This document shows positions 56,125 through 64,000 of a stretch of DNA of 64,000 nt, in pieces (positions within the stretch are counted from its first letter, which is position 1; the number at the start of each line of letters is the position of its first letter). The position numbers and the translations under genes are program-made. Below the pieces are notes generated by a model. It saw only the letters and a list, made by a program, of their open reading frames with translations, made no database searches and was not told the origin of the DNA. Source of the DNA: Gossypium raimondii (taxonomy: Eukaryota; Streptophyta; Magnoliopsida; Malvales; Malvaceae); assembly GCF_025698545.1 (NCBI RefSeq), contig NC_068569.1, positions 16,058,001-16,122,000 of the forward strand, written 5' to 3'.

Positions 56125-58880
56125 TGTAACACCCCCTAACCCCAAACCGTCGCCGGAACAGGGTTACGAGGCATTACCAGACATATCAAACAGTTTACGA
56201 ATAATTCATAATAAAATAACAATTGTAATATAATTGTATAACTAAATCCATATAATAAACTTTTGAAGTTCAAAACATGAATGAAAAAGTGAAATGAAAC
56301 TCGTTCAAATACTCCGAGATTTTTTTTTATAAAATTTCTGCAGCATTTCGGCTTATTTTTGCATAATACCTCCTGCAATTAAAACCATAGTATTTCCAAT
56401 CTCAACCAATTCAACCAATTCATTTCACATTCTCAATTCCTATTCTAAATACATTCTAATCAACTTAATCAACATAATATCAATTTAAATTTAACAATGT
56501 AATAAATTAAATAAAGATCAATAAACTTCTTTCATTATAATTCATAAACTTATACTACTAACATTTTTAATCATTCATACTAAAACATAATAACCTTTAT
56601 ACACATCCTATGTACATGCCACATTACCAAAATAAAATAAACATCACCAAAAGTATGCTGAAGTCGGGTCTGGTTTTGGATCTTTGGATCGATGATTGAC
56701 CTCTACAACTGCAAGACTAAGCAACCGTCTGCTGAAATACGCATATACTCAATGGTATCACTATAATTCAATTTATAATTAAATGCATTAAATCACACAC
56801 ATACTTTTCATCACAATTATCACTACTAATAAACAATTCAATCTTTAATATTAGCAATTAATTATATATAAATATCATTCTTTTTTTCTTTCTTTATTTC
56901 AAATTTCACTCTTCACATATAATATATCATTCGAGATTAGTTTTATCAAGAATTTATTTCATTTATCCCTATTAACTTGGCTCGGACTCATGGATACACG
57001 GATTCCAACCAAACACACCAAGAAATGTGAATCGATGTGAATAAGATGTGAAAAGTAACAACGTATTCAACACACAAAGTGTTGAATCATAATGATATGA
57101 TAACGATTTCGACACACAAAGTGCCGAATTGGTAACAAGATAACGATGTCGGCACATAAGTGCCTAATCGATGTTTCGCAAATACACCGTACTCTTCCAT
57201 ATCCGATGGCATGCCAACTATATCCGACTAGCCCGACTAGTTAATAGGGTATTTAATTCACTTTTAGTACAATTTTTCATCTTAGTTCAGTATCAATTAT
57301 AAATTCCTTATTTCAATCAGTTTCAAAGTATTGCAGTAATCACTACTACAGTAATTTCACAATTCAATACATTATACGTAACAAATTTTCAGTATTTTCA
57401 CAATTCACGCAGTACTCAAACAATATCCAGTATTCCATAATTTAATTCAATATCGGTTTCAATTCCATTATCACATTGTAAATTTATCATTTATTAAACA
57501 CTTACCTTAAAATACTTACCACACATAATTAGCAAATTAAACATTTAATAATAATAAAATTTGAATTATAATGATACAAACCGTAATTCCCGTGTCTATT
57601 CCTCGTCCACTTTTTCTTTTCCTTTCCTCGTGGATGCCTCGGGTGCGATATTAGCTACGAAAAGAAATTAAGATAATTTTCATAATCATTAGCACAACAC
57701 AATTTACTTGCTGAAATTTTTATCTAACTTTTACTTTAATTTCAATTTAATCCTAACTAAATCTATATATTTTCTTTCTCAATTCATACCTTCTTGCTAC
57801 TCAATTTCTTGCCAAACTTATATGTAACTATCTAATTTTATCATATTTTCATAATTTCGAATTTATTTCAATTTAATCCCTAAAATTAAAACTTATAGTT
57901 TAGTTTACAATTCAATCCTTTATTCAATTCCAATCAAAATTTTTATCAAATAAACCCTCAATTCCATCATTATTCAACATAAACCCTACTAAAAATAATC
58001 TATTAACTTCCAAAACCTCAACTTATTTTCAACAAAACTAACTTCTAAAACATCTAAATTAAAAGAAAAGGACTTGATTGACTTACCAAGTTAAATTCCA
58101 AGCTTTAAAAACTCTATTTTCCTTTTTCTTTCTTTTCTTCTTTCTCCCTGTTTCTCCTCTGTTTCATCTCTTTCTCTGTTTCTTTATTCTTTCTATTCTG
58201 TTTCTTTTCTTTTGCTTTGTTTTTATTTCCTTTTATTTTATTTACTTTATACTATAATAATATATTTATTCTAAATATCTATTAAATATTCAATCATATA
58301 TTCACATTTGTACACCATGAACACCATACAATTGTCACTATTTAATTTGTTTACCAAATAAAATCTCATAATATAATTAATTAATTAATTAATATCTTTT
58401 ACTTAAATTTTAAGTAATTAATAATTATAATACAAGTGTATATTTATACATTATTACACTTGTACCATCTTATCACCACACATTTGTCTTAATTTTAATT
58501 TATTCCATAATAAAATAATACAATTAATATAAATTGCAATTTAAATAAATAATAATAATTATTATTATTATTATATACATATAATATTTATATATAACTT
58601 AAATAAGTCTTGAATTTAACGCATATATGCCGCCTCTTTCCATGTAAGTGGCTTAATTGCCACTTTAGCCCTTTTTACTTTCTTTTAATTTATAATTAGA
58701 CTTTCACTCTTTATTCGATTTGATCCTTTTCTCCTAATTATTCTTAATTAGACTAAATTCACCTAATTAAGCACTCAACTAAACTCATAATTACTTCTAA
58801 TAATTATTTATGACTCAGTTTACTAAGACGGAAGCCCGATAATATACTTTTCCGGTGCCCACGGATTTTGGGTCGTTACA
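56125..58880 (+). mobile_element. solo LTR, 2756 bp, with intact target duplication
   Basis: Starts TGTAACACCCCCTAACCCC and ends GGGTCGTTACA. The 5-bp duplication TCTCA flanks it exactly (56120-56124 and 58881-58885). One LTR only, no internal sequence. It carries a hairpin array (57060-57180), the palindrome TGGCATGCCA (about 57207-57216), a pyrimidine-rich block (58110-58230) and the late word AAGACGGAAGCCCGATAA. It lies inside the outer LTR. Confidence 0.9.
57060..57180. repeat. tandem hairpin array in LTR
   Basis: TTCAACAC-acaaa-GTGTTGAA (57066-57086, perfect 8-bp stem), TTCGACAC-acaaa-GTGCCGAA (about 57107-57127) and TCGGCAC-ataa-GTGCCTAA (about 57148-57166), spaced about 41 bases, with linkers AATGATATGATAACGAT and GGTAACAAGATAACGAT. 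Confidence 0.85.
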
Positions 58881-59869
58881 TCTCATATAATCAACTAGCC
58901 TATACATGCCATATTACCAATTTCAAAGAGATAAAAAATACCAAATCAACTCCTGGATAGTGTGATGAAATCTTCAATGACTTCCAACCCGAGCGAGCTT
59001 TCAAATCACTGAAAAAAATACGAAAAATAAATAGAGTAAGCTAATAAGCTTAGTAAGCCGTATGATTATCAGTATTATAAATAATTTAACAATTTATTGA
59101 CAACTTAAAGCAACATAAATACATATAATTCAGCTCCTTCCAATTTAATTCTTATTGCATTAACAACTAGGTACTTCAAATATGAATTCATCAACTTTCA
59201 CTTACGTATCATATGAATTTATCAAATATCACTTACTTGTCAAGCATATCAAGTATACTTGTACTGACTCATATCATCATTTCTATTCTCGTACCATCAT
59301 CTATTCCATTGAACCATTGGAATTAACGTCGAATACTCAGTATTTAGCACACAAAGTGTCATATACGTAGTAAAACCATCTATATCTCATATTACATATA
59401 TATCACTAATTCATACATCAATATAACATGTAATATCATTTCCATACAATCCAACCAAATTTTCAAATTGCCTAAGCATATAAAACCATCAATAAGTTAG
59501 TACCATAATGTCCACATTTCATCGAATCATCACAAGTGAAAACAATAAGTATTCAAACTCAAGCACTTATAACTTTCATTTCATACTTTAGTTCACCATA
59601 AATCATCAATACTATGTAAATCACAAAACATTTATATCAATTCATTTCTATTCGTATAACTCGTAATTCATCAAGAATAATGTAAATTTATCCGTATCAA
59701 CAGTAACTTATACATATCAATAGTAATTCATCCATATAATTACATAGCTTATTCATATGATCAGTAACAATAATTATGCCTATTGAACCTATTAGAACAT
59801 TGAGGGATACACGGGTGATACACTATAAGTGTATTTATCAGAAATCCGTCAATTCATTATCATTTCTGC

Positions 59870-59990
59870 TCTTTCGAGCCATGATCAGTAAGCTCATTCC
59901 GAGCTGATGAACAGTAAGCTCTATCAAGCTGAAATGGTAAGCTCATAAGAGCTGATATATTGGTAAGCTCATACGAGCTGTGTTGAGTCT
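59870..59990. repeat. tandem AGCTC..GAGCT hairpin array
   Basis: Units GTAAGCTCATTCCGAGCTGAT, AAGCTCTATCAAGCTGA, AAGCTCATAAGAGCTGAT and AAGCTCATACGAGCTG, spaced about 25-30 bases, give AGCTC/GAGCT stems of 5 bp with 4-base loops. Confidence 0.8.
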
Positions 59991-60039
59991 GCAACAAATG
60001 CAGGAGCTCGACCAATACAGTAACCCTAGTGACATGTAT

Positions 60040-61097
60040 GACCAGAGAGGGTATGGTCATCTGCTTGTGGTTTTGGTTTGTCCATCATTTATGTATTTTT
60101 ATTTCTTTGGTACTTGCTTGTTGATAGTTGTTCTTGTTATGGTTCCAAGCCAGTATATTTTCTATTTAGCAGTTTTTTGCCTTTTAACTCTTATTGATAG
60201 TTTTCTATGCCTCTGTGTGTGGGTGTGGGTGTGGGTGTGTGTTTAGTGTTGAGAGCCAATTACTTCGAGCCTTGTTATCTACCCGACACTATTTGTTAGA
60301 AAGGAAGGAAAATGAAGGAAAGGAAAGGGCACTAAAATTGGTTTTATTATCATTCATTTTGGTACAGCAGATGGAAAATGGGAGGATGGAAAAAGATTGA
60401 GTAAACATGTAAATGATGTGATTGCACCTGTGGAAGGGTTGAATTTTAAGGGAATGAGAGAAATGTCCACCTATTTTCCTTGCCTTCTCCTAATACACTC
60501 TTTCCAGTAATCTCTGTGTCCTAGCATTATAATATCATTTTTTTAGTCAGTTAGGATAATTGGATTGCAAGGTTCGTGGTAGAGAGAAAGCTAGGTAAAG
60601 GTGGATTTGGTCAGGTGTTTGTTGGACGACGTGTTACTAGTGGAAATGAACGTGGAACCGGTTCTGCTGCCATGGAGGTAAACCATCTTTTACTGTCTCA
60701 AGCCTATAGGAAGTTTCATATGATCATAATTATTTATATTAATATCACTTCTGTTACTATTTTTGCCATCTTTTAGGTTGCTCTGAAATTTGAGCATAGA
60801 AACAGCAAAGGATGTAATGATGGTCCTCCGTATGAATGGCAAGTTTACAAGTAGGTGGCTCTATCTCGTTTCTAGTTGTTCTTTGGAACTTTTCTAAGTC
60901 TTGACTATATCTAACACTGTTGATCTTGTTGCGAATAGTGCTCTTGGTGGCAGTCATAAAGTTCCCAAAGTACACTACAAAGGGAAGCAAGGAGACTATG
61001 ATGTAATGGTATGATCCGCAGCTTGTTTTCTATTTGTGCATTTATCTTAAACTCTAAACACTAAACCCTAAAACCCTAAACCCTAAACCCTAAACCA
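60040..61097 (+). pseudogene. captured fragment of a MUT9/PPK-type CK1-like kinase gene
   Basis: Three consecutive exons (60572-60677, 60777-60850, 60939-61008) have intact GT..AG introns and an unbroken frame. The residues are [41 protein letters not shown] and [17 protein letters not shown]. They are the glycine loop, the Lys of VALK and the start of the N-lobe of plant MUT9-like/photoregulatory (PPK/AEL) kinases, nuclear CK1-type kinases that phosphorylate histones and light-signalling proteins. The rest of the kinase is absent. The sequence after exon 3 runs 40 bases and then becomes telomere-like repeat. About 530 bases of upstream intron come with it. The fragment lies inside an LTR and is bordered by TAACCCTAGTGAC duplications. 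A donor gene must exist elsewhere in the genome. No promoter was recognised. Confidence 0.85.
61049..61097. repeat. interstitial telomere-like repeat
   Basis: CTAAACACTAAACCCTAAAA followed by CCCTAAACCCTAAACCCTAA gives about six plant telomere heptamers (CCCTAAA), some imperfect, at the right end of the captured kinase fragment. Confidence 0.9.
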
Positions 61098-61245
61098 TAA
61101 CCCTAGTGACTTGTATCCTACGATTTTCTCTAAGTTCAAAAGGGGCTCGGTATTACTCAATAATTTCCTCAATCAAGCATTCGAATTTTGTATCATACAT
61201 TTTAAACAATTATAATTCTATTTCAAATCAAATGCAAGTAAATTC

Positions 61246-61317
61246 ACATAACTAAAGTTTGATTCTATTGATACGAACTTAACATAACTAAAGTTCGATT
61301 CTATTGATACGAACTTA
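61246..61317. repeat. perfect 36-bp tandem duplication
   Basis: ACATAACTAAAGTT(T/C)GATTC...GATACGAACTTA occurs twice head to tail (61246-61281, 61282-61317) with one difference. Confidence 0.9.
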
Positions 61318-61545
61318 CCTGGCTAAATAGCAGAAATTCCAAGGTTTAGGGGCATTTTGGTAATTTCCATTTTCCTCGATTTCCTCCCGCTCTTGATGTA
61401 AATAATCAAATTTAGCTATTTCAATCCATATTCTAGCCAATTCAATCCAATTTCACATTTTAGTAAAATTACTATTTTACCTCTAACACTTCGACATTTT
61501 TACAATTTAATCCCTAGCTCATAAAATACAAAATTCAGGAAATTA

Positions 61546-63743
61546 TGTAACAACCCTATACCCGGTCTAATCTTACAGACCCGATATAAGACTATTACAT
61601 TTGGTGCCAAAACGGTTATGGCTAGATATTGTTTAATTAAAACATTTATACATAGTATTTTAACCTACCAACCATATTTGCAAACATACTTATAGTTTCA
61701 CTAATTCATTTCATACATATATACCAAAATATTTCAAGCACCTCAAAATAGATAGAAGTTCAAGAGTCTACATTTAAGTCCCTAATACATGTGAATATAA
61801 CTGACTGCCTATGTACATGCCATTTTAATTCAAAATATGGTACCTACTTTTGAAGCTCTTGAGGATGTGATGAGATTAGAGATCTTCTAATCCAACTCTA
61901 CCTCTTCGAGTCAAACAGTACCTACGCGTTAAAATTAAACGCGTTAAGCCGGTGAAGGCTTAGTAAGCACTACGAGAAAAAATAGATAAATAAATCCTAA
62001 TAAAATATTTCAAACTCATTCCGTTAATACATATTTACAAACATATAAATTTCTTTAGCTATGCCATATATTAATAAAATTTAATATATCTTTTGTAATT
62101 ATAAAACTTACCTTAATACATTAATGATTCGCTTTTGTTCACAACTTATAATCTTAGCCCAAAGTAGAGTTTATAGAACACACCGGATATACGGAACAAA
62201 TACAGAGGTGCATTATTATGCACTAATGAACAGAGAGCATAGAAGTGCTAAACAAAGAGCACTGAAGTGCTAATAATCAGAGAGCACAGATGTGCTAACC
62301 AGAGAGCACTGACGTGCTAAATATCAGAGAGCGCGCTAGAGTTCCTTAATGGCATGCCACTAATATCATGGTGGTTCTAAATTCCATCTACTTGGGCATT
62401 AAAACTGAATCTCGTTCATTTAAATACTTTACATAATTATTTCAAAAAAGATTTCTCATTTCTCCATCATTACAATTTAGTGCTTATTTCACAATTCACA
62501 AATATCACACCTTTTTACATATATATATTTTTGTCACAACATTTACTTAATGTTCAAATAATATACCATCTATAATTTTCTTTACAAATTTCATAGTTCC
62601 ATAATCTTTTATTTTTACTTTATTTTATTTTATTTCTAAATAATTCTATACTATAATATAGGCATTTAAAATAAATAATTTCTAAAAAAAAATTCTTGTA
62701 GTACTTACAACAAAAGGTTGAGATGATGTCTTCCTTCACTCCTTAGTCTTCTCTTTTCCTTTTCTTCAATAAGGTCCTCTCCTTTCTTTTCTTTTCTTCA
62801 ATTTCATATAAAACATATAACATTTATATATTAGAGAAAACAATCAAATAACTTTCCTATATCATTTAATAAAAATAAACATGTATGATATAATAAATTC
62901 ACCATTTCTTACCTTAGCTCACATTTCAATTTAATTCATAACTAAAATTATTTCTATTTCTATCACAATCTATACCTTATTTTTAATTAAATTCTACTTA
63001 TAACTTAACTTAACTCTCAAATTTTCACTAATAAACCCTAATTTCGAATTTCTTACAATCTAGTCCTCATTGCATTAAACTTATAACTTATTTCACAATT
63101 TAATCCTTTTCCCAATTCTAGTTTGAATTTCCATCAATTCAATCTCTAATTCATCCATTAATTCAATATAAACTACATTAAAGAGTTCTACTAATTTTCA
63201 AAATTTCAACATATACTTAATAGTATTTTGTTCTAGGATCATAAAACTCAAAATTACAAGAAAAGGAATTAAATTGACTTACCAATTTAAGTTTAAACCC
63301 TTGAAATCCTAAACTTTTTTTTTTCCTTCTCTTCTGTTTTCGATGGCTTTGTTCTTTTATTTCATTTTCTGTTGTTTTATATAATAATAATATAATATAA
63401 TATAATATTATAATAATATAATATAATAACATACTTATTAATTAAGTAAATATAATATAATATATATTTTAAATTTAAAATATCTTAGATTTTTCAACGT
63501 TAAACCGCCTCAATTTATAATAATGGCATATTTACCTATTTAGTCCTTTTTACTTTCTTTAATCTATAATTAAACTTTCACATTTATTTCAATCTAATCC
63601 TTTTTTTTTCCTAATTACTTCTAATTAAGTCAAATTCACCTAATCAAAACCTAATTAGACACACAACTAAAAATATTTACGAATCCGATTTACCGGAACG
63701 GAGTCCCGGAAATGTTTTTTAATCTATTTAAATCAATTTTAAC
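61546..63743 (+). mobile_element. LTR, truncated at right by MITE
   Basis: Starts TGTAACAACCCTATACCCGG; contains GACCCGATATAAGACTATTAC, a hairpin array (62209-62340), TGGCATGCCA (62350-62359) and late words TTTACCGGAACGGAGTCCCGG. These late words match 13680-13706 of the solo LTR at 11816. It would continue past the MITE at 63744. No coding sequence. The 71-codon open frame on the minus strand is repeat DNA. Confidence 0.65.
62209..62345. repeat. tandem hairpin array in LTR
   Basis: GTGCATTATTATGCAC, AGCATAGAAGTGCT, AGCACTGAAGTGCT, AGCACAGATGTGCT and AGCACTGACGTGCT follow each other every 22-25 bases, separated by AACAAAG, AATAATCAGAG or AACCAGAG linkers. Stems are 5 bp (AGCAC/GTGCT) with four-base loops. 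Confidence 0.85.
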
Positions 63744-64000
63744 TAGAGGTGCTCATGGGCCGGGCGGCCCGGCCCGGCTCGACGGCCCGCCCGAAATATG
63801 GGAGGGTTTGGGTAAAAATATAGGCCCGAAATATGGGCTTGGGCAAAAAAACGAGACCAATTTAGAAAAAGAGCCGGGCCTCGGGCACCACTTTTTGGCT
63901 CAGGCAGCTACTACCGCCTAGAGGTGCTCATGGGCTGGGCCGGGCCCAGAAAAAGTTTCGGCTCGGGTCCTAGGCCCGGCCCGAAATATGGGCCTAGAAT
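63744..64000. mobile_element. hAT-like MITE copies (two, cut by window end)
   Basis: TAGAGGTGCTCATGGGCCGG at 63744 begins a relative of the MITE at 55255. A second TAGAGGTGCTCATGGGCTGG at about 63920 begins before the first is finished, so one copy is inserted in or abuts the other. The right end lies outside the window. Confidence 0.7.

Follow-up and report, generated by a model that had tools for sequence, protein, structure and literature searches.

Kinase-derived and telomere-like sequence inserted in a dispersed repeat of Gossypium raimondii, probably as a templated patch at a DNA break

The interrupted repeat and its empty site

The window, by which is meant the whole stretch of 64,000 nucleotides of G. 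raimondii DNA analysed here (contig 5:16058001-16122000), contains a copy of a dispersed repeat that is interrupted. The left part of the repeat (58877-60037) ends in TAACCCTAGTGACATGT and the right part (61109-61546) restarts at ACTTGTATCC. Between them lie four bases of filler, ATGA (60038-60041), then a fragment of a broken copy of a kinase gene on the plus strand (60042-61051) and a degenerate telomere-like array (61048-61105). A preliminary description of this DNA had reported the 13-nt string TAACCCTAGTGAC as present exactly on both sides, at 60021-60033 and 61098-61110, and this is the case. It had also called the repeat an LTR, and the repeat is treated here as a putative one. Rfam searches at gathering thresholds gave no match in the window.

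The genome of the plant itself (750.8 Mb, 281 contigs) was the search space. The insertion in the dispersed repeat is real: the empty site, ...TAACCCTAGTGACATGTCACTTGTATCC..., is found elsewhere in the same genome. All eight close copies (L036-L043) are uninterrupted across the insertion point, with the left and right parts continuous, and the unbroken form of the site is GTGACATGTCACTTG. Six of the eight are identical over AACCCTAGTGACATGTCACTTGTATC, while L041 has ATGTTACTTATATC and L042 has CCTAACGACATGTCAC, giving the consensus TAACCCTA(GT/AC)GACATGT(C/T)ACTT(G/A)TATC. The pattern AACCCTAGTGACATGTNACTTGTATC had 14 exact matches in the genome, six of them at loci already in the set of eight, and N was C in 14/14. 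With the left flank as query there were 40 matches, 40 of the 1057 candidates having been scored, and the alignments of all 39 other scored copies end at query position 478, which is window position 60037. Searching with the right flank (61098-61546) gave 42 matches (40 of 2480 candidates scored), including a diverged copy, L049, that is also contiguous across the junction region. Five relatives, L036-L040, match 58877-60037 and then go on from 61094/61098. In the window the repeat sequence ends at 60037 and restarts at 61109, so that 1,071 nt (60038-61108) stand in place of one C. The empty site can be written ACATGT-C-ACTTG, the replaced base being the C of ACATGTCAC, and GTGACATGTCAC at the break site is a perfect 12-bp palindrome.

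The right part of the repeat also contains a 36-bp tandem duplication (61246-61317) with two copies 97% alike. The unit is single in all five aligned relatives (L036-L040), and the duplication, 137 bp from the junction, may be a second small repair scar. Towards the end of the window, near-identical CTAGAGGTGCTCATGGGC repeats (96%) at 63743-63765 and 63918-63940 mark the start of a G+C-rich stretch.

The kinase-derived sequence and its lineage

The fragment at 60042-61051 matches three loci on contig 8, L031, L032 and L033, and is thus copied from sequence that the genome still has at other places. It comprises the end of an exon, a defective intron, a 5'-truncated exon (60579-60677), an intron, an exon (60777-60850), an intron, an exon (60939-61008) and the start of the next intron, all on the plus strand. 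As had been proposed, it is a kinase-like block with introns. Positions 60138-61051 align across exons and introns to the contig-8 copy L031 (contig 8:2212569-2213499), at 93% identity, and a second contig-8 copy reaches 60042. L032 (contig 8:2221463-2221986) is 92% identical to 60087-60629, and the parent-like gene L033 (contig 8:1267261-1268390) matches in two pieces at 88% and 81%. A more distant gene at contig 8:1274502-1274982 also matches the block. When a 1,141-base query was used (131 matches; 40 of the 225 candidates scored), its full length was matched at one place only. The introns of the block align to donor introns and were therefore copied with it, which excludes a retrocopy, in agreement with the preliminary description.

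The claim of three intact exons holds for two of them. Both edges are present on the exons at 60777-60850 and 60939-61008, but the first exon lacks about 29 nt at its 5' end together with its splice acceptor, and is 99 nt long in the window against 128 in the parent-like gene. The joined reading of 81 amino acids is open and has five differences from the parent-like copy. No Pfam family was assigned to this reading at E 0.01; its nearest match in a structure bank was casein kinase I-like (E 1.3e-4), followed by casein kinase-1 (E 9.6e-4). The more specific name MUT9/PPK comes from the preliminary description and is provisional.

The loss of the splice acceptor and of about 29 nt of exon (60555-60580, plus strand) is common to the window, L031 and L032 copies. 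Allowing no more than three mismatches, this breakage signature occurs at three places in the genome: contig 5:16118555-16118580, which is the window, contig 8:2213041-2213066 and contig 8:2221512-2221537. An intact kinase gene, which had been expected as the donor, is rejected as the direct donor by this shared breakage, and the fragment belongs instead to a broken lineage present at three places, the window and two on contig 8.

Within the lineage the three copies form a star. Over window positions 60138-60612, 10 sites are unique to the window, 11 to L031 and 10 to L032; 28 sites part these three from L033, one groups the window with L031, and there is one other. These counts come from a trimmed alignment without L034; the untrimmed one, which has poorly aligned ends and includes L034, was not used for distances. 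Because the three copies are equally distant, neither living contig-8 copy is a demonstrated direct template. The template was a dead gene copy, with L031 and L032 as sisters and not proven parents. Over 914 sites the K2P distance between the window and L031 comes to 0.054, which only assumed rates would turn into an age of a few million years. The kinase copies of L031, L032 and the window radiated at about one time. Of the two contig-8 copies, one is cut at the left beside LTR-end-like sequence and the other ends in an A-rich run.

The telomere-like array and the junctions

The right end of the block is a CCCTAAA-type repeat, as had been noted, and was found by TRF with period 7 (61048-61105). 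It contains CTC, CAC, CCCTAAAA and CCATAA variants, some of which are also found in existing arrays, and its final 8 nt may instead be copied flank of the repeat. The array is absent at the matching point of L031, L033 and L034, and L032 stops before it. Past the aligned end, where the window enters CTCTAAACACTAAACCC..., these three homologues have ordinary intron, and the array was rejected as part of the donor intron on these grounds. A 31-mer from the beginning of the array has its sole exact match at the window, with 3 places at one mismatch and 18 at two. No source for the array emerged from a search with a 33-mer across its start, which had three other matches with 2 or 3 mismatches. The near-matching arrays L065-L067 are degenerate and gave no whole-array match by eye. 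Similar and degenerate arrays also occur inside chromosomes, so that a telomere is only one candidate source, and the form CCCTAAAACCCTAA is present both in internal arrays and close to where contigs 3, 4 and 5 begin. Since existing arrays are possible templates, telomerase is unnecessary.

Two further arrangements were seen on contig 1. At 2722145-2722172 and 2736206-2736233 the string AACCCTAAACCAAAAAACCCTAGTGACT, which is telomere-like, adjoins CCCTAGTGACT. At L065 (contig 1:3260560-3260820) a telomere-like array is bracketed by GCGTTTTG and ACGTCAGC motifs, which occur repeatedly on either side, and this locus could be a dispersed repeat carrying telomere-like arrays.

The left junction reads ...GTGACATGT (to 60037), ATGA, and then donor sequence CCAGAGAGG from 60042. 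The ATGA is absent at this point in the relatives of the repeat and in L032 and L033. The right junction reads ...CCATAACCCTAGTG and then ACTTGTATCC from 61109. A duplication of up to 19 bases had been claimed, but its real length is 13 nt and the empty site goes on as ATGTCACTTGTAT. The (A/T)TGTAT that follows each copy is not a pair of mutual copies, as ATGT at 60034-60037 is native repeat followed by the ATGA filler and TTGTAT at 61111 belongs to the native flank on the right. Likewise, the empty site predicted from such a duplication, CCTAGTGACTTGTATC, has a single match in the genome, the window itself.

The two 13-nt copies differ in standing. The left one (60021-60033) is native repeat, which in empty copies is single and followed by ATGTCAC; these 7 nt are kept in all eight close empty sites, in one of them as ATGTTAC. 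The right copy (61098-61110) lacks ATGTCAC, so the duplication is not continuous with native sequence on both sides and is not a simple target-site duplication. For the same reason fill-in alone is insufficient to explain it, and either a 7-nt deletion or the copying of left flank as filler is needed too. A target-site duplication made by a transposase or integrase was rejected on this evidence. Of the 13 duplicated nt, eight (61098-61105) are telomere-like (TAACCCTA) and the final AC (61109-61110) is also native right flank, so that the strictly unexplained part is GTG (61106-61108). The 13-nt duplication is thus weaker evidence than it appears, and we do not regard it as a proven target-site duplication.

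Where the right copy came from was considered by comparing four arrays, in which AACCCTA follows T in 2 of 51 occurrences and precedes G in 0 of 51 (33 of the 51 are from one array). A genome pattern search for AAACCCTAAACCATAACCCTAG gave an exact match at the window only. The rarity of TAACCCTA in arrays and the uniqueness of AAACCCTAAACCATAACCCTAG favour the flank as the source, and we give roughly even odds that the right copy was taken from the left flank of the repeat. The junction can also be parsed without any flank copy, as an array end TAACCCTA, a G and donor TGAC (TTGACTTGTA). Array-like strings with the end CCCTAACCCTAG exist at two other places, contig 9:31914100 and contig 11:43386587, where they carry AAACCCTAAACCCTAACCCTAG.

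Two strings follow the aligned end of L031: TGACTTGTA after 8 nt and, after 24 nt, AGTGACATGTC. Over 11 nt the second string is identical to the break site; it is also found in L033, farther away, and the 11-mer has one copy in each locus. Of 8376 windows of 60 nt taken from the rest of the 64 kb (both strands, step 15), none has 10 nt or more in common with the 25-nt break core, the maximum being 9, in 3 windows. At the four contig-8 loci, 13 of 5038 windows reach 11 nt and 33 reach at least 9. These tests of microhomology were chosen after the sequence had been inspected. The 11-nt match speaks for the broken repeat having been in contact with this donor region. The match is not within the copied segment, and a single simple strand invasion would give the elements in a different order.

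Repair of a break by copying, and other routes to the insertion

Taken together, the junctions show an ATGA filler on the left, a join at AC with telomere-like AACCCTA on the right, and an 11-nt match to the donor homologue near the break. The empty site, the junctions, the donor lineage and the absence of the array from three donor homologues are observations, and with them we favour repair of a break using copied templates, at a probability of about 0.78. This figure is for the core only and overlaps with those for the first two alternatives below, which share the core. In this reading we infer the break itself, a single event, the order and direction of copying, and an enzyme activity of polymerase theta type or synthesis-dependent strand annealing. 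A double-strand break would have occurred inside the palindrome GTGACATGTCAC of an old copy of the repeat. Microhomology-primed synthesis with template switching would then have filled it, beginning with the 4 nt of filler, continuing with about 1,010 nt from a broken kinase-gene copy of the contig-8 lineage and then with about 50-58 nt of telomere-like repeat. After this, TAACCCTAGTG would probably have been copied off the repeat's own left flank, the telomere-like strand having annealed to AACCCTA, which the target contains. The final join, between the patch and the right end, would have been made at AC, for a net exchange of 1,071 nt for one C. The preliminary description had proposed repair of a staggered break. 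Its insertion by break repair, its genic piece with introns, its telomere-like DNA beside the target heptamer and its lack of transposon ends are upheld, but a duplication of as many as 19 bp from a simple staggered break is not.

The array could have been a second event, or have been present once in a donor now extinct. In such a two-step history, which we consider unlikely, the kinase patch would have come first, joined on the right via ACTTGTA/TGACTTGTA, and the array would have taken the place of 8 nt between CTTAAA and TGAC, either afterwards or beforehand in the donor. Most of the 13-nt duplication would then be coincidence. L031 does read CTTAAA-TCCATGCT-TGACTTGTA, and TGACTTGTA equals the right junction of the window over 9 nt, a 9-mer with three occurrences on the two strands of the 64 kb, the junction itself included. 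Strings ending in CCCTAACCCTAG do exist at the two other places given above, and one study of mammals describes short telomeric arrays inserted with small deletions (PMC7215372). However, the 9-mer is missing from one donor homologue, L033, which has TGACTTATA, and the array must have ended by chance in TAACCCTAG beside a target with the identical string, although in the four arrays T precedes only 2 of 51 AACCCTA and G follows none. Slightly less probable again is a staggered break with long 3' overhangs that were filled in, giving a true duplication of 17-20 nt from which the right ATGTCAC was later lost through the AC direct repeat or else through the palindrome, the insert being joined in. 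The exact 13-nt repeat at both ends would be accounted for, small tandem duplications from complementary 3' overhangs appear in a report on mammalian cells (PMC8355091), and the 36-bp tandem duplication 137 bp away is absent from all five aligned relatives. However, an extra deletion of 7 nt is needed exactly at the junction, and it becomes unexplained chance that the duplicated string matches telomere-like sequence.

A quite improbable route is through telomerase or a telomere-primed polymerase acting at an interstitial break in the germ line. A 3' strand exposed at the right end and ending in CACTAGGGTTA would have been extended with TTTAGGG-type repeats and then captured by a strand copying the kinase fragment from another chromosome. 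Chromosome healing would then be recorded together with templated patching in a single scar, whose palindrome shares 11 bp with the donor region; if true, this would extend to plants the mammalian route by which telomeric arrays are inserted. Least probable by far is capture by a DNA transposon, a Pack-MULE or Helitron, that has since decayed. Gene fragments with introns are typical captured cargo of such transposons, but here there are no terminal inverted repeats and no Helitron 5' TC, and the whole block is at one place among the candidates scored (40 of 225). That no inverted repeats flank the block, as first described, is borne out: the longest end-to-end inverted match within 40 nt is 6 nt, a length that 361 of 1000 random window pairs also attain, and a Pack-MULE or other TIR transposon was rejected since this is the level of chance pairs. 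With the ends widened to 120 nt, the longest inverted match was 9 nt, which 140 of 1000 such random pairs attained. Helitrons have a 5' TC, a 3' hairpin plus CTRR and insertion between A and T. Such ends are absent here, as the insert starts ATGACC, the insertion is not between A and T, and there is no stable hairpin in 61056-61110, that near the right-hand CTAG having 0.0 kcal/mol with DNA parameters and -1.3 with RNA parameters. A Helitron was rejected on its 5' end, hairpin and insertion point.

The preferred reading, copying of templates during break repair, has relatives among known systems. Filler DNA and templated patch insertions at plant double-strand breaks were reportedly described by Wicker in 2010 and by Vaughn and Bennetzen in 2014. 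Like these, the present case has an ectopic genic piece with introns at a non-homologous site, a short flank duplication and no transposon ends; unlike them, its template lineage was already broken, a telomere-like array is included and the flank copy misses part of the native site. Templated insertions from distant regions are said to have been found in human cells by Onozawa in 2014, and the likeness is the copying of distant sequence at break sites.

Work on Arabidopsis describes polymerase theta-mediated end joining with microhomology and flank-templated fillers (PMC10923293), and work on rice transposon excisions describes fillers of 1 to 123 bp (PMC4423477). Both resemble the present case in microhomology at the joins and in copies from break flanks or elsewhere, whereas by comparison with those rice fillers the insert here is about 1 kb and comes from another chromosome. 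In mammals, telomeric arrays are described as entering breaks beside in-register bases, sometimes with flank duplication (PMC7215372). The short array beside telomere-like target bases, and in some the duplicated flank, are alike in those short interstitial telomeric sequences, but here about 1 kb of kinase sequence accompanies the array and the array has variant units. For plants, break repair is named as a possible source of short arrays in a review (PMC8621592).

The patch looks like a clear example of known, messy DNA repair and not a new kind of element; its sole unusual point is the well-resolved anatomy of its several templates. It provides a base-resolved case of the scattering of gene fragments in plant genomes, with the empty site, the donor lineage and the junctions in one assembly, and illustrates that an apparent long target-site duplication can vanish once the empty site is read.
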